Assembly (NCBI GenBank): GCA_009777535.1
Contig: WRLP01000005.1
Location: 62,001 to 126,000 of the forward strand
DNA length: 64,000 nt
DNA from: Treponema sp.
GTDB taxonomy: Bacteria > Spirochaetota > Spirochaetia > Treponematales > Breznakiellaceae
Direction: 5' to 3'
Each line of letters opens with the position of its first letter. Position 1 is the first letter of the stretch. Shown one piece after another: positions 23,591 to 41,000 of the stretch. The notes beneath the pieces were generated by a model. The model saw only the letters and a program-made list of their open reading frames with translations, was not told the origin of the DNA and searched no databases. The translations under genes were made by a program, and so were the position numbers.

Positions 23591-23780
23591 AAGGAACCTC
23601 CTGTTTAAGCTACGCCGCCTGTTCGGCCTTTAACCTGACAGGGGTGGAGGGGTTCAGTCGGCTGGGTCATGGCTACGCCATTCCCACGCCAGCCTTCACC
23701 CACAGTTTGTCAGCCCTGCAAATGCTACGCATTTGTTTATTCGGGCTGCCAAACTGTCGCCAACCTAGAACGTTATGTGC
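23591..23780 (+). repeat. attC-like cassette repeat R1
   Basis: GC-rich repeat of about 190 bp between AT-rich genes. It has a degenerate left end (AAC at 23595), the constant segment TACGCCGCCTGTTCGGCCTT, the inner stem AGTTTGTCAGCCC (23704-23716) with GGGCTGCCAAACT (23743-23755; 12 of 13 pair), and a terminal hairpin CAAATGC/GCATTTG (23719-23725, 23729-23735) around TAC. Next come the L'-like GTCGCCAACC and the right end GTTATGTGC (23772). The layout is that of an integron attC site, unusually long. Confidence 0.7.
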
Positions 23781-23815
23781 AATACGTACTAAATTGAATT
23801 AAAAAAATGAAATAA

Positions 23816-23844
23816 TTGACTTAAAGAAAAAAGTATAGTATAAA
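23816..23844 (+). promoter_or_regulatory. Promoter of cassette 2
   Basis: TTGACT (23816-23821) and TATAAA (23839-23844) are spaced 17 bases apart, located 44 bases after the junction. A 45-50 base leader with a GGAGGA site (23885-23890) follows. Confidence 0.6.
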
Positions 23845-23895
23845 ATACAAAGAAAGCATACTAATGTAGTAAATAAGTCCTTTTGGAGGAATTTT

Positions 23896-24126
23896 ATGGA
23901 AGAATTGGTTAAAATCGTTACAAAATTCTCGGAATCAGGCTGGGATTTAATTGAAGCCCCCTCAAAAGCATGGCTAGTGGCAAATAAAGACAATGGAAAA
24001 TATTTTAATTCTACCAAAGAATTAATCAAAATAATTGAGCGGGCAGATGCAGAATGTGGAAATTGCGGGTGTGAATTTGACCCTTTGTATAAAAAAGCTT
24101 TAGAATTATTAAATACTGTAGTATAA
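23896..24126 (+). CDS. Hypothetical 76-residue protein, cassette 2
   Basis: A short soluble protein with a helix-rich start (MEELVKIVTKFSESGWDLIE) and a Cys motif CGNCGCEF near residues 54-61 that could bind a metal. No family recognised. It has its own promoter and a GGAGGA ribosome-binding site. It is the first of two frames in this cassette; the second is broken. Confidence 0.55.
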   Translation: MEELVKIVTKFSESGWDLIEAPSKAWLVANKDNGKYFNSTKELIKIIERADAECGNCGCEFDPLYKKALELLNTVV

Positions 24127-24134
24127 ATAAACAC

Positions 24135-24299
24135 ATTCCAATAAAAGTTAAAAAAGAAATAAAGAAAAAATTATCAGTTAAAGGAAAGAAGTATCCAAAT
24201 TGTGGAATAAATAATCCAAATTATTGTTTATTAAAATTTACCGCTAAAAATGGTAGGTATTATTATTGATTCAAGACAGAAATACTTGAAATTGAATAA
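24135..24299 (+). pseudogene. Remnant of a second gene in cassette 2
   Basis: One frame encodes HIPIKVKKEIKKKLSVKGKK and KYPNCGINNPNYCLLKFTA and ends GRYYY, a TGA at 24267-24269, FKTEILEIE and TAA. There is no start codon and the TGA stands where a sense codon such as TGG would keep the frame open. The CxxxxxxC spacing and basic start are faintly HNH-like, which I would not press. It looks like a decayed downstream gene. Confidence 0.4.
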
Positions 24300-24357
24300 T
24301 GCTGAGTAGTTGTTTAAATTAATATATTACAAAAGAAATAATGAACGCTCGTACTTC

Positions 24358-24537
24358 ACATAATAAACGGTTAACGCTTCGCCGCCTAATCGGCGGCTCC
24401 GGGTTTACGTTCGCCTAGGTCATTGCGCTTAGCTCCATTCCCACGGCTCACCTCAAGCACATTTTAGCAGTCCTGGTATTTCTACGCGAGCGCTTATTCG
24501 GGCTGCAAAAATGTCGCTAACCTAAAGAGTTATGTGT
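24358..24537 (+). repeat. attC-like cassette repeat R2
   Basis: Left end CACATAATAAACGG, L'' GTTAACGC, then a hairpin GCCGCCTAATCGGCGGC in place of the constant segment of R1, R3 and R5. The inner stem ACATTTTAGCAGTCC (24459-24473) pairs with GGGCTGCAAAAATGT (24500-24514) in 13 of 15 positions. The right side has GTCGCTAACC (L') and GTTATGTGTAATA (24529, R'). The left and right ends are complementary except for the last base of the left core. Confidence 0.75.
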
Positions 24538-25193: not shown

Positions 25194-25388
25194 GCCTAAC
25201 AAACGGTAGATGTTACGCCGCTCATTCGGCCTTCAACCCGACAGGGTTGGAGGGGTTACGCATGGCTAAGTCAGTCGCCCTGCGAGCTCGCTCCCATGCC
25301 ATGCTCCACTCACATTTGGGGCAGGGGTCAATGTTACGCATTGTCCTATTACCTGCCCCAAACGTCGCTAACCTCGAACGTTATGTGC
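25194..25388 (+). repeat. attC-like cassette repeat R3 (most complete)
   Basis: Left core GCCTAAC (25194-25200, matches RYYYAAC), then the constant segment with the hairpin CAACCCGACAGGGTTG (25234-25249). The inner stem TTTGGGGCAGG (25315-25325) pairs perfectly with CCTGCCCCAAA (25352-25362); the loop contains TTACGC. L' is GTCGCTAACC and the right core GTTATGT (25380-25386). Length about 195 bp, GC-rich between AT-rich genes. Confidence 0.78.
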
Positions 25389-25465: not shown

Positions 25466-25975
25466 ATGAATGTATTAGAAAATAAAATCACATTAAAACC
25501 TCTCAAAAAAGAAGATGTAAACACTTTTATTAAATGGTTGAATAAAGAATATATTTACAAAAGACTTTGTCCAGGTGGAGAAGAAGAAAAACAAGCATGG
25601 TTGCATGAAGTAAATAATACTGATGGAAAATATAATCACTTCAAATATTTTATAGTAAATTATAATGGTATAAAAATTGGTTGCGGACTTTTTGTGGATA
25701 TTTATTATGAACAGGAATATTTAGAAAAAAATTATGGGATTATTGTTAATAAAAATTCTGTTTATGAAATAGGTTATTTTATTGGGGAAGAGGAATTTCT
25801 TAATAAAGGGATTGGTAAAATTATTGTAAAAAAATTAGAGGAAAAAATTGTAGAAATTGAAGGAAAGGAAATACTTGCAGATCCTGAACCAGTAAATATA
25901 CCATCAATAAAAGTATTGTTGAGTAACGGGTTTGTAAAAATAAAAGATTGTGATTATAGAAAAAAATTAAAATAA
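25466..25975 (+). CDS. GNAT-family N-acetyltransferase, cassette 4
   Basis: Protein of 169 residues of the GNAT fold. It begins ITLKPLKKEDVNTFIKWLN, has the core beta strand YEIGYFIGEEEFLNKGIGK with the acetyl-CoA pyrophosphate loop (N-K-G-I-G-K), and ends with IPSIKVLLSNGFVKI, typical of the family. It resembles aminoglycoside 6'-type and ribosomal-protein acetyltransferases, but the substrate cannot be told. It has no Shine-Dalgarno sequence. It shares its cassette with the PNPOx-like gene 31 bp downstream. Confidence 0.82.
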   Translation: MNVLENKITLKPLKKEDVNTFIKWLNKEYIYKRLCPGGEEEKQAWLHEVNNTDGKYNHFKYFIVNYNGIKIGCGLFVDIYYEQEYLEKNYGIIVNKNSVYEIGYFIGEEEFLNKGIGKIIVKKLEEKIVEIEGKEILADPEPVNIPSIKVLLSNGFVKIKDCDYRKKLK

Positions 25976-26006
25976 ATTTTATTCAACACTTTATTCGGAG
26001 GACGAA

Positions 26007-26423
26007 ATGACGGGAAAAGAAATGTTAGAAGGTCTAATATCAGAACAGACAGTAAGTTTTATTAGTTCAGTGGATGAAAACGGGTTTCCAAATACCAAGG
26101 CTATGTTGCCCCCTTGTAAACGGGATGGGATAAAAACGTTTTATTGGCATACCAATACTTCCTCAATAAGGACAAAACAATATCTAAAGAATCCTAAAGC
26201 ATGTATTTATTTTTGTAATGGACCTGCTTTTAAAGGAGTCATGTTACTTGGGGCAATGGAAGTTATTGATGATATGAAGGTAAAAAAGGAAATATGGAAA
26301 GATGGTTTTACCATGTATTATCCAGAGGGAATAAATGATCCTGATTTTATATTATTAAAATTTACGGCAAAAAGTGGTAGATACTATGGTGACCTTAATA
26401 CAGGTAATTTTGAAATAGACTAA
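26007..26423 (+). CDS. Pyridoxamine 5'-phosphate oxidase-like flavoprotein, cassette 4
   Basis: Protein of 138 residues of the split beta-barrel PNPOx-like family: SFISSVDENGFPNTKAMLPP, then FYWHTNTSSIRTKQYLKNPK, then ACIYFCNGPAFKGVMLLGAM. Members bind FMN or related cofactors and are usually small reductases or stress proteins. The substrate here is unknown. A CGGAGGA site (25995-26001) precedes the ATG. It is the second gene in its cassette and precedes a partial repeat end. Confidence 0.8.
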   Translation: MTGKEMLEGLISEQTVSFISSVDENGFPNTKAMLPPCKRDGIKTFYWHTNTSSIRTKQYLKNPKACIYFCNGPAFKGVMLLGAMEVIDDMKVKKEIWKDGFTMYYPEGINDPDFILLKFTAKSGRYYGDLNTGNFEID

Positions 26424-26440
26424 TAATGTAAAAAGCCCAA

Positions 26441-26475
26441 TGTCATCAACCTATAACGTTAAATGACATACGTCC
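26441..26475 (+). repeat. Partial cassette junction (right end only)
   Basis: GTCATCAACCTATAACGTTAAATGAC matches the right end of the complete repeats (GTCGCTAACCTCGAACGTTATG) but carries the variant core GTTAAAT (26458-26464), a perfect GTTRRRY. The left arm and inner stem are missing. ATGACAT and ATGTCAT around 26462-26486 can pair. The following cassette holds the fatty acid transporter. Confidence 0.6.
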
Positions 26476-26621
26476 AAAAAATGTCATAATAAAAGCATAA
26501 ATTTTAGAAGAAAAATATTTTATTAAAATTATTGTATGCAAGCTACATCCTTGGCACATGAAATAAAAATTAAAATACAATACATATGGGTGTATTAATA
26601 ATTGTACAATATAAAGATTCT

Positions 26622-26640
26622 GTGTCAGGCACTCTTTTTT
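26622..26640. terminator. Short palindrome with T-run
   Basis: GTGTCAGGCAC (26622-26632) is followed by TCTTTTTTTG. A near copy, GTGCCAGGCAC with T7, lies at 61393. It may end transcripts from cassette 4 or be a dispersed repeat; the stem is very short. Confidence 0.3.
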
Positions 26641-26732
26641 TGTCAAATTTATAAAAATACTTTATCCGTTATCTTGTAATAACATAAATTTAAGTGTATA
26701 ATAGCTAAACGATTCTTACATAGGAGGTGTAT

Positions 26733-28115
26733 ATGTTTAGAAAGTTTACAAATGCGTGCGTTGCCCTGGTTCAACGCTTCCTTCCGGATCCTTTCCTCTT
26801 TTGTATTATCTTAACGATAATATGTTTCCTCCTGGCCATGCCCCTTACGAGTCAGGGCCCGGTTACCATGGTAATGCATTGGGGAAATGGAATGTGGGTA
26901 CTCTTGGCATTCTCTATGCAAATGGCCCTGGTTTTGGTTCTGGGTTCGGCTATGGCGAACTCGCCGCCAATGAAAAAATTCCTTAAAACTCTGGCATCAA
27001 TTCCAAAAACAGCGGGCCAGGCCATTGTGCTGACCACCGTCGTTTCACTTGCCGCATGCTGGCTAAACTGGGGTTTTGGGCTCATAGTCGGCGCGCTTAT
27101 TGCCAAGGAAATCTCAAAGACTGGCCTTAAAGTGGATTATCCTCTGATAATTGCTTCCGCCTATACGGGCTTCCTTATCTGGCACGGCGGTTTTTCCGGC
27201 TCTATTCCTTTGGGTGTCGCTACAGCGCCCGCTGCGGGAGCAGCCATCCCAAGTACCGGCGGCGTGCTTACGGAAGCTGTTTCTACCAGTCAGACGATAT
27301 TCGCATGGTGGAACCTGTTAATCTGCGCCGGTTTATTTATCCTGTTGCCCATTGTTAATCGCGCCATGCATCCAAAGGGAGATGATATAAAACTCATCAA
27401 TCCGGCGCTGCTTACCGAAGACCCGGAAGAACAATTTAAATCGGAAACCCCTGCGGAAAAACTTGAAGCCAGCCGTATTCTTCAGTGGATTGCCATTGCT
27501 TTTGCAGTGATATATCTTTTCCGGCGAATGACTGCGGCAAATTTCTCCCTAGACCTCAATATTGTTAACCTGATCTTCCTTACCCTGGGACTTATTTTTT
27601 ACGGAAGACCCATACTTTACGTGCGGGCCATTGCAAAGGCCGCAAAAGAAGCGGGCCCTATTCTGCTTCAGTTCCCCTTCTACGCTGGTATTCAGGGCCT
27701 CATGGTCGGCGCGACAGCTGTAGCCGCGGGCGGTACGGGTTTAAGCCTTGCCGCTGTAATCAGCAATGCCTTTGTTGCAATATCCACGCGGGTAACTTTC
27801 CCGCTCTTTACCTTCCTTTCAGCCGGAATTGTAAATTTCTTTATCCCGTCAGGCGGGGGTCAGTGGGCGGTACAAGGTCCCATCATGATGCCCGCGGGCC
27901 AGGCCCTGGGAGTAGACCCGGCGCTTTCTGCCATGTCCATTGCTTGGGGAGACGCATGGACCAACATGATACAGCCTTTCTGGGCACTACCGGCCCTTGG
28001 AGTTGCCGGTCTTAGCGCGCGGAACATCATGGGTTACTGCGTCATGGCTATGCTTGTATCAGGCCTTCTGATTTGTGGGGGATTCATCCTCGCAGGTGTT
28101 GTAATTTACGGTTAA
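26733..28115 (+). CDS. atoE: Short-chain fatty acid transporter
   Basis: Integral membrane protein of 460 residues of the AtoE/short-chain fatty acid:H+ symporter family: MFRKFTNACVALVQRFLPDP at the start, FLIWHGGFSGSIPLGVATAP, and FFIPSGGGQWAVQGPIMMPA with GDAWTNMIQPFWALPALG near the end. It should move butyrate or acetoacetate-type acids across the inner membrane. The start is the ATG at 26733 with AGGAGGT just before it. The gene has higher GC than the other cassette genes and is large for a cassette, yet it lies between a GTTAAAT junction and a repeat whose left core is the exact complement. Confidence 0.9.
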   Translation: MFRKFTNACVALVQRFLPDPFLFCIILTIICFLLAMPLTSQGPVTMVMHWGNGMWVLLAFSMQMALVLVLGSAMANSPPMKKFLKTLASIPKTAGQAIVLTTVVSLAACWLNWGFGLIVGALIAKEISKTGLKVDYPLIIASAYTGFLIWHGGFSGSIPLGVATAPAAGAAIPSTGGVLTEAVSTSQTIFAWWNLLICAGLFILLPIVNRAMHPKGDDIKLINPALLTEDPEEQFKSETPAEKLEASRILQWIAIAFAVIYLFRRMTAANFSLDLNIVNLIFLTLGLIFYGRPILYVRAIAKAAKEAGPILLQFPFYAGIQGLMVGATAVAAGGTGLSLAAVISNAFVAISTRVTFPLFTFLSAGIVNFFIPSGGGQWAVQGPIMMPAGQALGVDPALSAMSIAWGDAWTNMIQPFWALPALGVAGLSARNIMGYCVMAMLVSGLLICGGFILAGVVIYG

Positions 28116-28182
28116 ATAAAAGAGGGTGTCCGAGAGTACACACATTAGTGACTGACACCAGATTTTCATGGTGCCGTATTAG

Positions 28183-28222
28183 TCAGCCCACGCTATATCT
28201 AGTGTGGGCTGATTCTTTTAAT
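28183..28222 (+). terminator. Terminator after the fatty acid transporter gene
   Basis: TCAGCCCAC (28183-28191) and GTGGGCTGA (28204-28212) form a perfect nine-base stem followed by TTCTTTTAATTT. Confidence 0.8.
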
Positions 28223-28281
28223 TTAGTGCTATAAAAAATGTAGACGTTAAAATTAAGAAAAAAATTATTGTATGGGCGCAC

Positions 28282-28390
28282 GTCATTTAACAGGACTGTT
28301 AACGCTACGCCGCATATTCGGCTTTCAACCCGACAGGGTTGGAGGGGTTCAGTCGGCTAAGTCATCCCACACTTTTCTTAGGCTAAGTGT
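28282..28390 (+). repeat. attC-like cassette repeat R4, left half
   Basis: Left end GTCATTTAAC (28282-28291; core ATTTAAC fits RYYYAAC), L'' GTTAACGC, constant segment with the hairpin CAACCCGACAGGGTTG (28326-28341), GTTCAGTCGGCTAAGTCAT, and then divergence. The inner stem and right end are missing. The left end is the exact reverse complement of the junction GTTAAATGAC at 26458, so both belong to the same cassette. Confidence 0.65.
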
Positions 28391-28402: not shown

Positions 28403-28819
28403 CTAATATTTTTTATAATTATCCATAATATCCTGAATAGTAATGTTATAAAGATACTCATTAATAATATTTTCCAACCCTTGCCAAAGCGGTAAGGTTT
28501 TACAAAATATATTGCGTTCGCAGCGATTTGGCTCATCTTCAAGGCATGAAACAGGACTTAAACTTCCTTCGGTAATTGTCAATATTTCCCCAACTATATA
28601 TTGGTTTGGCTCTTTTGCCAGCATATATCCGCCTTTATTTCCACGATTTGACCGTAATATATCAGGGTTACTCAATAAAGTAACAATTTGTTCTAAATAT
28701 TTCCTTGAAATACCTTGCCGCTGTGAAATATCCTTCAAGGATATAAACCCAAGTGATTTATGCTCTGCTAAATCAATAAGCATACGCAGTGCGTACCGCC
28801 CTTTTGTCGATATTTTCAC
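28403..28819 (-). CDS. Rrf2-family transcriptional regulator
   Basis: Protein of 138 residues: MKISTKGRYALRMLIDLAEH, the helix-turn-helix ISLKDISQRQGISRKYLEQI, and NKGGYMLAK of the wing. Three cysteines lie in CLEDEPNRCERNIFC (C-x7-C-x5-C), as in Rrf2 proteins that bind an Fe-S cluster (IscR, RsrR type), though CymR-like members sense sulfur status without one. It is divergent from the cysteine/methionine genes at 28965 and 30265 and is very probably their regulator. Confidence 0.88.
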   Translation of the reverse strand: MKISTKGRYALRMLIDLAEHKSLGFISLKDISQRQGISRKYLEQIVTLLSNPDILRSNRGNKGGYMLAKEPNQYIVGEILTITEGSLSPVSCLEDEPNRCERNIFCKTLPLWQGLENIINEYLYNITIQDIMDNYKKY

Positions 28820-28884
28820 AGTTTTCCTACCTAATTATATTATCATATATATACCATAGGCATACTATGTTTTCAAGCAGCCTA

Positions 28885-28913
28885 TTGACAAGTTCTACAA
28901 TTTTTGACAATAT
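28885..28913 (+). promoter_or_regulatory. Promoter of the sulfhydrylase-cysteine synthase operon
   Basis: TTGACA (28885-28890), 17 bases, CAATAT (28908-28913). AT-rich partly palindromic sequence at 28836-28866 (ATATATATACCATAGG and CATACTATG) between the divergent starts is the likely site for the Rrf2 protein. Confidence 0.5.
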
Positions 28914-28964
28914 CATACTTAACACATAGGAATAATGTGCATACTAAGAGAAAGGAGTATATCC

Positions 28965-30257
28965 ATGGGAAAAAAACACAAATTTGAAACGCTCCAGCTT
29001 CACGCTGGACAGGAAAAGCCAGATTCGGCTACAGATGCAAGGGCTGTGCCAATTTATGCCACAACTTCTTACGTATTTAAGGATTGTGCACAAGCTGCCG
29101 GAAGGTTTGCTTTGACGGAAACGGGGAACATCTATACCCGCCTGATGAACCCAACCTCAGATGTATTTGAACAGCGTATAGCGGCTCTTGAAGGCGGCGT
29201 GGCAGCTCTTGCGACATCTTCGGGAGCGGCGGCAATTACATACGCAGTACAAAATATCGCTACGGCAGGGCATAATATTGTATCTGATAAGCGTATCTAT
29301 GGCGGTACATACAACCTTTTCGCCAACACCTTGCCCGATTTTGGTATTTCTACCACATTTGTAGATGGCAGTGACCCGAAAAACTTTGAAAACGCAATTA
29401 ATGAAAACACGAAGGCGCTATTTGTGGAAACGTTGGGAAACCCCCACTCCACTATTGTTAATATTGAAGCTCTGGCAACTATTGCCCATGAACATGGCAT
29501 TCCCCTAATTGTGGACAATACATTTGCAACCCCATATCTATTTCGCCCCATTGAACATGGTGCAGATGTAGTTGTTCATTCAGCAACAAAGTTTATTGGA
29601 GGGCATGGAACTGCTATTGGCGGTGTGATAATTGACAGCGGCAAATTTGATTGGGCAAAAAATGACAAATTCCCCGGTCTTTCAAAACCAAACGCAAGTT
29701 ATCATGGCGTTGTGCTTACTGAAGCAGCGGGAAATCTTGCGTATATTATAAAAATCAGGGTAACACTTATGAGGGATACCGGTGCGACAATAAGCCCTTT
29801 TCATTCTTTTCTTTTTCTTCAAGGTCTGGAAACTTTGTCGCTTCGCGTAGAACGTCATGTAGAAAATGCCCTTAAAGTGATTAAATTTCTCTGCCAACAT
29901 CCACAGGTAGAATCGGTGAATCATCCGTCCCTGCCAAGCCATCAGGATCATGCTTTATATCAAAAGTATTTCCCGAATGGCGGAGGATCAATTTTCACTT
30001 TTGAGATTAAGCAAACCTCCGGTTTGAGTAATACCGAAAAGGCGAAAGATTTTATCGACAGGCTGGAGCTGTTTTCCCTGCTTGCCAATGTTGCAGATTC
30101 CAAATCGCTGGTTATTCATCCGGCTTCTACAACGCATTCCCAGCTTTCTATAGAAGAATTGCTGGATCAGGGGATTAAGCCGAATACTGTACGGCTTTCT
30201 ATAGGGACAGAACACATTGACGATATTATCGCCGATTTAGAACAGGCTTTGAGGTAA
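28965..30257 (+). CDS. metY: O-acetylhomoserine sulfhydrylase
   Basis: PLP-dependent enzyme of the Cys/Met metabolism family, 430 residues from the ATG at 28965 (GAAAGGAG lies before it; the frame is open ten codons further). Motifs: [32 protein letters not shown], the PLP-lysine segment [20 protein letters not shown], and [18 protein letters not shown] at the end. It joins sulfide with O-acetylhomoserine to give homocysteine. It forms an operon with cysK and is controlled by the divergent Rrf2 gene. Confidence 0.95.
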
Positions 30258-30264
30258 TAGTTTT

Positions 30265-31203
30265 ATGGAAAAAATCGCAAGCACTTTATCAGAACTCATT
30301 GGGAAAACGCCATTATTGCGTTTAAATGGGTACGAAAAGAATTTTGGTCTTGAAGCTGAAATATTTGGCAAACTGGAATATTTTAACCCTACCGGAAGTG
30401 TAAAAGATCGTATCGCATTGGCAATGATCAATGAAGCAGAAAAAAACGGTACATTAAAAAATGGTTCGGTTATTATTGAGCCAACCAGTGGAAATACGGG
30501 CATTGGCCTTGCTTCTATAGCTGCAGCACGAGGGTATCGCATAATACTTACTATGCCTGAAACAATGAGCATAGAACGCCGTAAATTGTTAGCCGCTTAT
30601 GGTGCGGAACTTGTACTAACAGAAGGAACAAAAGGGATGAAAGGTGCAATTGCCAAAGCAGAAGAATTAATTGCAGAAATTCCTAATTCATTAATTCTCA
30701 AACAGTTTAATAATCCAGCCAATCCACAAATCCACTATGAAACTACCGGACCTGAAATTTGGAATGACACAGACGGTAAAATTGATATTTTTGTTTCAGG
30801 TGTTGGAACTGGCGGAACAATTACAGGCGCAGGAGATTTTCTTAAATCAAAAAATCCCTTGATAAAGATTGTTGCAGTTGAACCATTTGATTCTCCAATG
30901 CTTTCTGAGGGAAAAGCGGGGGCACACAAAATCCAAGGTATTGGCGCAGGTTTTGTACCGAAGATATTAAACACAAGTATTTACGATGAAATAATCACTG
31001 TAAAAAATGATGATGCATTTGAAACAGTGCGCAATCTTGCTCGTACTGATGGACTGCTTGTTGGTATATCATCAGGTGCGGCATTATGGGCTGCAGCACA
31101 AATTGCCAATCGAACAGAAAACAAAGGGAAAAGAATTGTGGTTATTCTTCCCGATACAGGCGAAAGGTATTTGTCTACGCCATTGTTTGAGGCAAATATT
31201 TGA
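30265..31203 (+). CDS. cysK: Cysteine synthase (O-acetylserine sulfhydrylase)
   Basis: Protein of 312 residues. The PLP lysine lies in [15 protein letters not shown], the substrate loop in [19 protein letters not shown], the phosphate-binding loop in [12 protein letters not shown], and the C-terminal serine loop in [15 protein letters not shown]. It makes cysteine from O-acetylserine and sulfide. It follows metY by seven bases. A complete cassette repeat begins 53 bp after its stop, so the operon sits at the right edge of a cassette-like unit. Confidence 0.96.
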
Positions 31204-31255: not shown

Positions 31256-31460
31256 CACATAACAAACGATTAACGCGCCTGTCCTATGGACAGGACGCCG
31301 CCTGTTCGGCCTTCAACCCGGCAGGGTTGGAGGGGTTCAGTTGGCTAGGTCATGGCTAAAGCCACTCCCACGCCTCCTTCACCCACATTCCAGCCCACCG
31401 CAAACCCACGGTTTGCTTTATAAGGTGGGCTGGAACGTCGTCATTCTGGAACGTTAGGCG
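31256..31460 (+). repeat. attC-like cassette repeat R5
   Basis: Left end CACATAACAAACG (31256), L'' ATTAACGC, an added small hairpin CCTGTCC/GGACAGG, and the constant segment with CAACCCGGCAGGGTTG (31314-31329). The perfect 12-bp inner stem TTCCAGCCCACC (31388-31399) with GGTGGGCTGGAA (31424-31435) is continued by GCAAACC/GGTTTGC (31400-31406, 31410-31416). L' is CGTCGTCATTC and the right core GTTAGGC (31453-31459) is a perfect GTTRRRY. Confidence 0.78.
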
Positions 31461-32270: not shown

Positions 32271-32461
32271 GCTTAACAGGTCTGTTTACGCTTAGCCGCC
32301 TAACGGCGGCTTGGACTCCGAAAAACCGCTGTCGTGCTTCGCCCTTTGTGCGGTTTTGTCTCTGCCACAGTTTGGGCATGGGGTTGCGTATCTTCGATAC
32401 GATGCTTCGCATTGCCCTTTTGCCTGCCCAAACCGTCGCATACAACCGGAGCGTTATGTGC
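32271..32461 (+). repeat. attC-like cassette repeat R6
   Basis: Left core GCTTAAC (32271-32277, fits RYYYAAC), L'' GTTTACGC, hairpin GCCGCCTAACGGCGGC as in R2, then unique sequence. Inner stem GTTTGGGCA (32370-32378) pairs with TGCCCAAAC (32425-32433), with a GTATC/GATAC hairpin in the loop. L' is GTCGCATACAACC and the right core GTTATGT (32453-32459). Confidence 0.75.
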
Positions 32462-33482: not shown

Positions 33483-33565
33483 GCCTAACAAGCGATTAAC
33501 GCTACACCGCCTGTTCAGCCTTCAACCTGACAGGGTTGGAGGGGTTTAATCCAGATCGTTAAATG
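33483..33565 (+). repeat. attC-like cassette repeat R7, internally deleted
   Basis: Left core GCCTAAC (33483-33489), L'' ATTAACGCT, constant segment with CAACCTGACAGGGTTG (33523-33538), then directly the right core CGTTAAATGAC (33558). The variable stem and L' are missing, leaving 83 bp. The bases after the core (ACATAAGATCCAAAA) resemble those after the 26458 junction. This is the last repeat of the array. Confidence 0.65.
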
Positions 33566-33598
33566 ACATAAGATCCAAAATTGTGGAAAAGTAAATTA

Positions 33599-38084: not shown

Positions 38085-41000
38085 CTACCAAAAACACAGA
38101 CGCCCGCGGTCGGTGGTAAAACCTGCTTCTCTAAAACCCGGCGCGTACACACTGTTAGCTGCAACTTGGCCGTTTATCTTTTCTATTATCACATTTTTTT
38201 CGCTTAGAACCTTTCTTGTACGTGGTATTTTGAACATATTAATCAACTGCGGTAAGTTCGGATCTGTATGATCGGGAAAAAGCTGAATGTCTCTGGCGTT
38301 TTTATTACTGATGGCGATAAGATCGGCGCCCCTGAAATAGAGCCTGTTGGCTGCATTCCTGGCGCATGGCTGGTATCCAAGGCCTTCGATTGAAAGGCCG
38401 CATGGGCTTGCCGGATCGATAGCATTCATCCAGTAAATTTCCCGCATTGCCTCGGCCTCTTCCAGTTCGCGTGCAATGGCGGGGGAAGCGAACTGCAGGG
38501 AGTTAATTCCATCGAAAAAACGGCCTGCGACCAGTTCGCCGGCAAGCTCCATGCGGCGGATTGTCGGCAGCAGTTTTGACCAGCCGAAAACAGGCGCCTC
38601 GTGTTCCAGCAGCGGGCGGCAGAGGATACCCCAGCGATCGAGAAGCAGGCGCACCCGCTCCCGGTTAAGGCTTTCTTCTTCCAGGGGTGTGCCGGGACTT
38701 TCTGCACCGTCCATCAACAGCGAAAACCAGTTTCCGGTAACGGGTGCGCCGGAGCGCCAGCGATCACGCAGGGCCCTTGGAACGCGGGGGCGGCGGCCAA
38801 AGGGGACGCTTTCTGTATCTAACTGAAAATTAATTTCTTTTGGAACAAAACCGAATTCAATTCCCCTTCTTACAGGTTCAAGGGTATCCGCCGACAATCC
38901 GCCGAGCCATACTTCGCGCCATAAATCTTCGGCGCAGGTGCGGGTGTCTGTATCATTTTCGCTGCGTGTTAGCTCATCTTTTATTTCCCAAAAATTCCTT
39001 AGTTTGTCAAAAAATCCCGATGTCAAAAGCCGCTCCATGCCGCCCGCATCTTTGCGTAAATCGCCGACAAGCGCTAAATCCAAATCTTCGGGCGAACAGA
39101 AGCCAATTTTCTCTTTTTCTGTTCCGTACCAAACAAGGCGGCCTTCGCGGATTTCCCGGTCGATGGCTTCTGGCTCGAGGGACTTGTTTCTGGCGCAGAG
39201 AATTTCTGCCTCCCAGAGTTTTGCCGGCGCTGTCCAGGCATACAGTTCTTTTCTGAAAGCCGCATTTGTGGCAGTGCGGGAAACTATTCCCTGGCGCAGG
39301 GCAAGAAAGGGGACAAGCATGGAAGCAGGCTGTTCCTTTATAACCGGCCTGGCTTTTTTCCGCGACAGGCGCAGCAGCATGTCGAGGTTTTCTCTGTCGC
39401 AGACAAGTCCGTCTTTTTGCCCTGTTTCATCGCCGAGGGCAACATCGCGAACCGCTTCGTCAATTTCAACTAACGCACTTACAGCGTCGTCAGCTGCGCT
39501 TTCCTTAACGCCAAATACTTCGCAAATTCTTTTGATCGATACAGGCCCCTCGTAACGCAGCCACGGCCCAAGCAGGCTCAGGGCTTCATTCTCCCATGTT
39601 TCTTCCCATTCTATGTGAACCACAGATGCAATCATCGCACCGCTGCGTTTAACAATTTTGATTTTACCGCTTGTATCCGGCTTTTCAGCTAATGCCCCTG
39701 TAAGAGCTTCCCATTCGTCGATGGGAATGGCGATTCGTTCTTTTACCCATTCTGTCAGCGCAATGTCGTTTTCGGGAGCCCAGCCTGTTTTTTCCCTGCG
39801 CAGTTTTTCGGTAAAATCATTTACGATACCGGCCTTTAGAACCGGCCTGAGCGCTGAACTGCCCAGAGCTTCCTCTATGACCCTGTCCGAAAGGGAAGCG
39901 CTAGAACCGGCGAGGTCTTTGCGCTCATCAGTTTCGTATATAAGCCCGTTTATTTCCTGGTTGACAATATCACCGGAAAAGGGGCTTGGGGTTTTGCTGT
40001 GAAAAAACAGGAGATTAACGGTTCCATTGTTAATCGAAGCCAGCAGTTCCCGAAAGCCGTCAATATCAAAAATATCGACAAGGCAGCTCCGCCAGGCTTC
40101 GGCAATTGCCGGAAAACCGTCTTCGGCGGCGACTGCGTCGAAGAGCCGCCTCGATCGCTGTCTCATTATCCACAGCGGCGTGCGTTTGCCGAAACCTGCT
40201 TTTGGCAGCAGAAGGCTGCGTTCGGCGGCTTCACGGAAATTTGCGCCGAAGACGCCTGATGTTTCAAGGCGGTCTCTGAACAACCGCTCTCCACGGCACA
40301 ACCCGCCGCTGCCGGCAGTCTCCAGGGCGGCGAGGGCGCGGCGGAATAAATCCTGTAACTTGAATGTATTTTCATTTTCGACGCCAAGGCGCGGCAGAAA
40401 AAAGAGAATGCTGTCATCATTGGAAAAAGTTTCGACGCGCACTTTAAGTGTTTCTTCCAGTTCCTGGCACAGGGCCAGGGAAAGCGGATAATTTACCGCG
40501 CCGCCGCGGAAACTGTGAATTAATACCGAACAGAAGTCCCTGCTGAATTCCCTGTTTAATTCAGTGCCTTCCGTTATTTCAACAACTATTGTTTTATTGT
40601 CGGTAAGGGGGATGCCGCCCTGGGCTCCTTTTTGGGAATCGAGAAAGGCCTTCAGCGATTTTTGTGCCGTTCCTTCGAGGCAGTCAACCGATGCCGTCCT
40701 GTTGTAAGATGCGAGAATTGCCAAAACTCGTTCTGTAAGGTTGCCGCTGCGAAAAACGGCATCCGCCTTCCAGAACGGGATAAAATCTACCCTCGTTTCC
40801 AGGGGAACGGCCTCCACGGATTCCGGCCCTATGTTTGTTATGCGCCACCCGCGTGAGCCGAAATCAAAACAGTCCCCCAGGCGGCGTTCATAAACAAATT
40901 CTTCGTCAAGCTCTCCGATTTTCGTGCCGTCGGCAAGTCTTAGGGAATACATTCCGCGGTTTGCAATCACGCCGCCGGACGAATAAAGCAGGGTAAGGGT

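Follow-up and report, generated by a model that had tools for sequence, protein, structure and literature searches.

A gene for a predicted short-chain fatty acid transporter of the atoE type lies within an attC array in the Treponema sp. DNA analysed here (64 kb, hereafter called the window), between two short sequences that match each other in reverse complement. The question raised by this locus is whether these ends define a single cassette and, if so, how such a gene came to be carried in it. A preliminary description of this DNA reported that GTTAAATGAC at 26458-26467 and GTCATTTAAC at 28282-28291 are exact reverse complements over 10 bases, and took them to be the ends of one cassette that would pair in the excised circle. 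The ten-base match is confirmed, and the two sequences prove to be the inner parts of two longer, 18-nt arms.

Repeated attC sites with RYYYAAC...GTTRRRY cores are found between genes in the window, as in an integron cassette array. Those upstream of atoE, all on the plus strand and scored with model R1, are located at 23595-23779 (139 bits, with a degenerate R'' core), 24358-24536 (142 bits) and 25194-25387 (138 bits). Those downstream, also on the plus strand, are located at 31257-31460 (142 bits), 32271-32460 (121 bits) and 33483-33565, the last being a short site (60 bits) that terminates the array. The junction at 33558-33570 begins with GTTAAATGACATA, which resembles the start of the atoE cassette, and no end-arm partner for it was found downstream to position 40000. 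Within the cassette at 23772-24357, the segment 24204-24300 shares 72% identity with the 3' end of a PNPOx-like gene (26328-26424) and is possibly the remnant of a second copy.

Both attC sites that should flank atoE are damaged. The upstream cassette (payload 25466-26423, plus strand) carries genes assigned by domain matches to a GNAT acetyltransferase (25466-25975) and the PNPOx-like protein (26007-26423). Of its attC only the right half is present (26439-26464, plus strand, by-eye alignment with intact sites); the left half and the end arm are both gone, and the arm scan yields no end-arm partner for the cassette start at 25380. On the other side, the atoE cassette retains the left half of its attC (28285-28365, plus strand), which the attC model matches at 49.5 bits with the right arm aligned only by force, the right half being absent. 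The downstream unit (28403-31203), whose start arm has been lost, encodes an Rrf2-type regulator (28403-28819, minus strand), a MetY-type enzyme (28935-30257, plus strand) and CysK (30265-31203, plus strand). Neighbouring cassettes in the window are also decayed, with poorer arms at 24529 and 32453. The GNAT gene resembles AAC(6') aminoglycoside acetyltransferases only weakly (43 bits versus a cut-off of 340); spirochaete-type attC sites are reported on AAC(6') resistance cassettes (PMC8352920).

The predicted atoE-type transporter (26733-28115, plus strand) matches Pfam SCFA_trans (PF02667) over residues 1-452 of 453 (E 2e-160) and scores 521 bits against TIGR00366, below the cut-off of 575.75, and its relatives lie in an ato-operon context. 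Its ATG at 26733 is preceded by the Shine-Dalgarno sequence AGGAGG at 26722-26727, and a terminator-like element read from the sequence (28183-28219, plus strand) comprises a perfect 9-bp hairpin followed by TTCTTTT. The GC content is 51% in the gene, 24% in the leader and 37% in the tail. The initial description of a higher-GC gene with a Shine-Dalgarno sequence and a terminator is thereby confirmed. Part of the terminator falls within a stretch of about 50 bp (28147-28198) that recurs at 607-659 and 918-969 of contig C25 with 87% identity. A further sequence beside atoE, TGTCAGGCAC, was considered as a mobile-element end and rejected, its 10 copies versus 4 in the control being too weak a signal.

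Copies of the transporter gene lacking flanking cores, which the preliminary description had proposed to seek in related genomes, are present in three of them. Genomes G011 and G020 carry the operon order atoE-atoD-atoA-atoB, while in G027 atoE is flanked by a symporter-type gene and by other genes, with a thiolase end upstream; the attC model gave zero matches on the atoE stretches read in these genomes. The genome studied here has a single copy of atoE, and its atoDAB genes are located on contig C29 without atoE, after dehydrogenase and permease genes (these two assigned by inspection only); a cassette whose arms match perfectly (C29:287-1752) lies about 7 kb away. DNA similarity to the relatives is limited to the atoE gene, beginning at 26720-26733 and ending at 28063-28130. 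Because the identity of atoE to these relatives (74-77%) equals that of atoDAB (74-78%), the gene was not imported from a distant donor. Judged by these sequence comparisons, atoE is a genus-typical gene of native type, and its capture from the chromosome into a cassette is supported. Capture may have taken place in this lineage, or the gene may have come from a congener already in cassette form.

The proposal that a chromosomal gene was captured is therefore supported, given the operon without attC in G011 and G020 and the atoDAB genes on C29. The further claim that this occurred recently is not supported: atoE has diverged to a degree usual in the genus, its arms have two mismatches beyond the common one, and each of the attC sites beside it is incomplete. 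Nor is the use of the locus as a test case for excision supported. The atoE unit has no complete attC on either side, although the known reaction requires two, and excision by attC x attC recombination looks impossible because both flanking sites are half-sites.

With a covariance model for attC built from ten sites of this genome, 33 of the 40 genus genomes contain matches, and so do the window and contigs C26 and C29. Both ends could be set for 37 genus cassettes; three others, with an ill-defined end or an intervening truncated site, were omitted. In these 37, the first 18 nt are mostly the reverse complement of the cassette's own last 18 nt, so the R' and R'' ends of one cassette match over a length greater than the usual core, and the pairing of ends proposed for the atoE cassette is a relation common to the whole set. 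With arms scored as matches over positions 5-18 without 11 (13 positions), the mean is 11.6/13 within a cassette versus 6.1/13 between cassettes, and the observed sum of arm matches was reached in none of 20,000 permutations. At positions 13-18 the match is 84-95% within cassettes versus 23-46% between them, and it drops to baseline at nt 19. The arm match is not merely a shared consensus, because the sequence at positions 14-17 varies almost freely from cassette to cassette. Position 11 is an exception to the complementarity: 35 of the 37 cassettes have A there in the start arm and C in the end arm.

Arm pairs scoring at least 12/13 were found in the genus and in two further genomes, G056 (five pairs, with mismatches concentrated at positions 10-11) and G039 (one pair), both of family f4 and both with a recombinase lacking the I2 insert. 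None were found in the scanned stretches with an I2-bearing IntI, including those from Pseudomonas and Stutzerimonas, where the DNA was scanned and single cassettes were not annotated; some of these control stretches are short. Reversed sequences likewise gave no pairs at this score, and a threshold of 11/13 admitted single pairs in L198 and L249. The fetched flanks of I2-less recombinases from other families, namely those of G048 (L245), G037 (L248) and G057 (L249), contain no pairs of at least 12/13. In one cassette (L216:4748-5892, G022:C16) the arms look swapped, with G at start position 11 and A at the end, and the flanking GTA/TAA are also exchanged, as if the cassette had been inverted between its attC sites.

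The atoE arms conform to this pattern in a weakened form. The start arm (26458-26475, plus strand), comprising the R' core GTTAAAT and 11 nt, and the end arm (28274-28291, plus strand), comprising 11 nt and the R'' core ATTTAAC, match in reverse complement at 15 of 18 positions, with mismatches at 11, 13 and 16. The exact run ends at nt 10 because nt 11, an A in the start arm, is the nearly fixed mismatch of genus cassettes, and the mismatches at 13 and 16 are additional to it. Anchored scanning across all 64 kb finds these arms as the sole pair of at least 11/13 at positions 5-18 without 11, and the same scan of the reversed window gave zero pairs at this score. The next-best partner of either arm within the window matches at 10-11 of 17 positions, versus 15 of 17 for the two arms with each other.

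Contig C26 of the same genome encodes a tyrosine recombinase of about 390 aa, followed by three attC sites and then the contig end. The attC-like DNA beside this enzyme speaks against the alternative that an integrase for the window array is absent from the genome. The first C26 cassette begins at L179:6342 with arms of 13/13, and the first cassettes downstream of the enzyme are those at L179:6342 and L247:6491. The recombinase and the window array (C5) are on separate contigs of a metagenome assembly, and the genus assemblies are fragmented. Among 18 recombinase loci of the genus, nine have an attC match at E 4e-12 or better no more than about 2 kb away, and of these nine loci seven are in the T. 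denticola-like orientation and two divergent; the other half have no attC in the flank examined, and most of these are near contig ends. Two other features were observed: a cassette on C26 (L179:7041-7547) with no obvious ORF and with internal imperfect repeats, and an attC-like site on the minus strand of C13 (L180:5159-5328) near a tRNA gene and a phage-type integrase-like ORF.

The I2 insert, a helix, is thought to define integron integrases. In the genus recombinases the catalytic residues Arg, Lys, His, Arg, His and Tyr form invariant alignment columns. A profile alignment with spirochaete IntI proteins (364 columns) shows gaps at the I2 insert, and the full profiles align through a homologous N-terminal extension. 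The C26 enzyme scores 196.6 bits against TIGR02249 (IntI), below the cut-off of 265, and does not classify as an I2-bearing IntI; proteins above this cut-off occur in 0 of 37 genus genomes versus 10 of 23 other genomes of the order. Its best NCBIfam and PDB matches are to XerA / NF040815 (205 bits against NF040815, cut-off 220), and its predicted fold (mean pLDDT 80) is nearest to XerA and IntI4. A phylogenetic tree places the genus recombinases with IntI, apart from XerC/XerD (support 100/99), with the root and several inner forks unsure and long branches meeting. Tips L241 and L242 of this tree were labelled 'no' for the insert by a text pattern; both carry it and fall in the I2 clade.

We hypothesize, with a probability of roughly 60%, that the atoE segment is a partly broken cassette of a genus-wide integron variant that uses long-stem, Xer-like recognition, and that atoE was captured and later stranded. 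Once a cassette is free and circular, its arms, together with the attC between them, would fold on the bottom strand into a hairpin whose outer stem of 18 bp might imitate a double-stranded recombinase site. The I2-less recombinase could then recognise this hairpin much as XerCD uses the CTX-phi hairpin, with the long stem replacing the role played elsewhere by I2 and extrahelical bases. By thermodynamic estimate, a free cassette that pairs its own two arms forms a bottom-strand hairpin of -59 kcal/mol on average, versus -49 kcal/mol at an array junction, where the arms are those of neighbours and do not match, a difference of about 10 kcal/mol in stability. Such a mechanism implies that circles should integrate more readily than cassettes leave the array. 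Computed folding favours the bottom strand over the top in 23 of 23 circles, and in 22 of 23 for the arms alone; the same preference was computed for array junctions and is thus not special to the arms. The position-11 pair would form a G-T wobble on the bottom strand and an A-C clash on the top, and may thereby favour the bottom strand. For the window, the corresponding history would be that atoE, a native-type gene normally found with atoDAB, became a cassette payload and that later deletions in both flanking attC sites stranded it.

The arms might instead record how cassettes are formed, for example by fold-back synthesis that copies one end and is followed by decay, and have no part in recognition. 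This would account for the finding that most intact genus cassettes have perfect arms while others are decayed, for the sharp limit at 18 nt and for the almost free sequence at positions 13-18. We nevertheless consider it improbable, since plain copying would not be expected to give the nearly fixed mismatch at position 11. It is also unlikely, somewhat more so, that atoE was never taken up by an integrase and entered a small pre-existing cassette by another route, such as repeat-mediated insertion. An exact 14-bp direct repeat, AAAATTATTGTATG, lies just within both cassette ends (26525-26538 and 28261-28274), with no other copies in the window, and the leader and tail are AT-rich, as in other cassettes. 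However, a repeat of 14 bp carries little weight where the DNA is AT-rich, and no transposase or clear insertion ends were seen around atoE.

A 7-nt match between the cores of the cassette ends is the textbook rule, and the atoE unit could in principle be an ordinary cassette with an R'/R'' match of about 7 bp, the remaining matches being due to chance. Cassettes of this ordinary kind exist in the same order. In 34 cassettes from two T. denticola-like genomes with a normal IntI, the ends match at no less than 94% over nt 1-7 and at 74% at nt 8, and then fall to baseline. In the genus, by contrast, the match extends to nt 18 far beyond what permutation yields, and the atoE pair is unique at its score in 64 kb, which makes chance a very poor explanation. 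The notion that the two half-sites are one attC, through whose loop a circular atoE cassette inserted, fits their order (right half 26439-26464, left half 28285-28365) and is scarcely credible. The L' at 26439, whose reverse complement is GGTTGATGAC, and the L'' near 28297 (CTGTTAACGC) are not complementary, although the corresponding parts of intact C26 sites pair well, and the idea was rejected on this mismatch.

If attC arrays are indeed served by an I2-less enzyme, the need for I2 becomes directly testable. The 18-nt arm rule and its nearly fixed mismatch provide exact, checkable cassette boundaries, and the atoE case would exemplify an operon gene as cassette payload while its former operon partners stay in the genome. 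We can offer only as a doubtful conjecture the idea that these recombinases are a lineage surviving from before the gain of I2, running arrays on hairpins made from cassette ends, and hence a living intermediate between Xer and integron systems. Secondary loss of I2 is an alternative to primary absence because spirochaete IntI and the I2-less enzymes share the N-terminal extension. One study describes I2 as the acquisition that enabled integrases to recombine folded single strands and names the lack of intermediates as an obstacle (PMC7790495); as of 2016, cassette genesis still lacked a reliable model (PMC4792948).

Wu et al. (2013) reported Treponema integrons and found none in the two termite-gut species examined (PMC3607928), and the spirochaete attC model of Ghaly et al. 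(PMC8352920) may already cover some of the sites described here. In the accessible parts of the open-access literature, neither cassette arms of 18 nt nor an attC array served by a recombinase without I2 is described, which is weak evidence, and Rfam returned chance microRNA matches only. The closest known systems are the Treponema chromosomal integrons (T. denticola, T. vincentii, T. succinifaciens, T. brennaborense), which share with the genus system attC-bounded arrays, an integrase mostly transcribed towards the array and a homologous N-terminal extension (PMC3607928). They differ in that their integrase has I2 and in that, among the T. denticola-like genomes tested, the match between cassette ends stops at nt 8, whereas the genus enzyme lacks I2, the ends match to nt 18 and the attC sequences are different. 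The window array resembles a CALIN in having no adjoining integrase, yet attC sites of this type also occur in the genome next to the recombinase on C26. XerA / NF040815 is the nearest family by database match, but the C26 enzyme falls under its cut-off and has the N-terminal extension common to spirochaete IntI. Finally, CTX-phi integration by XerCD, as described in PMC4792948, also employs an I2-less recombinase and a folded single-stranded site whose stem imitates double-stranded DNA, as proposed here for the genus system. CTX-phi differs in using the host XerCD and having no cassette array, whereas the C26 enzyme groups with IntI and not with XerC/XerD.
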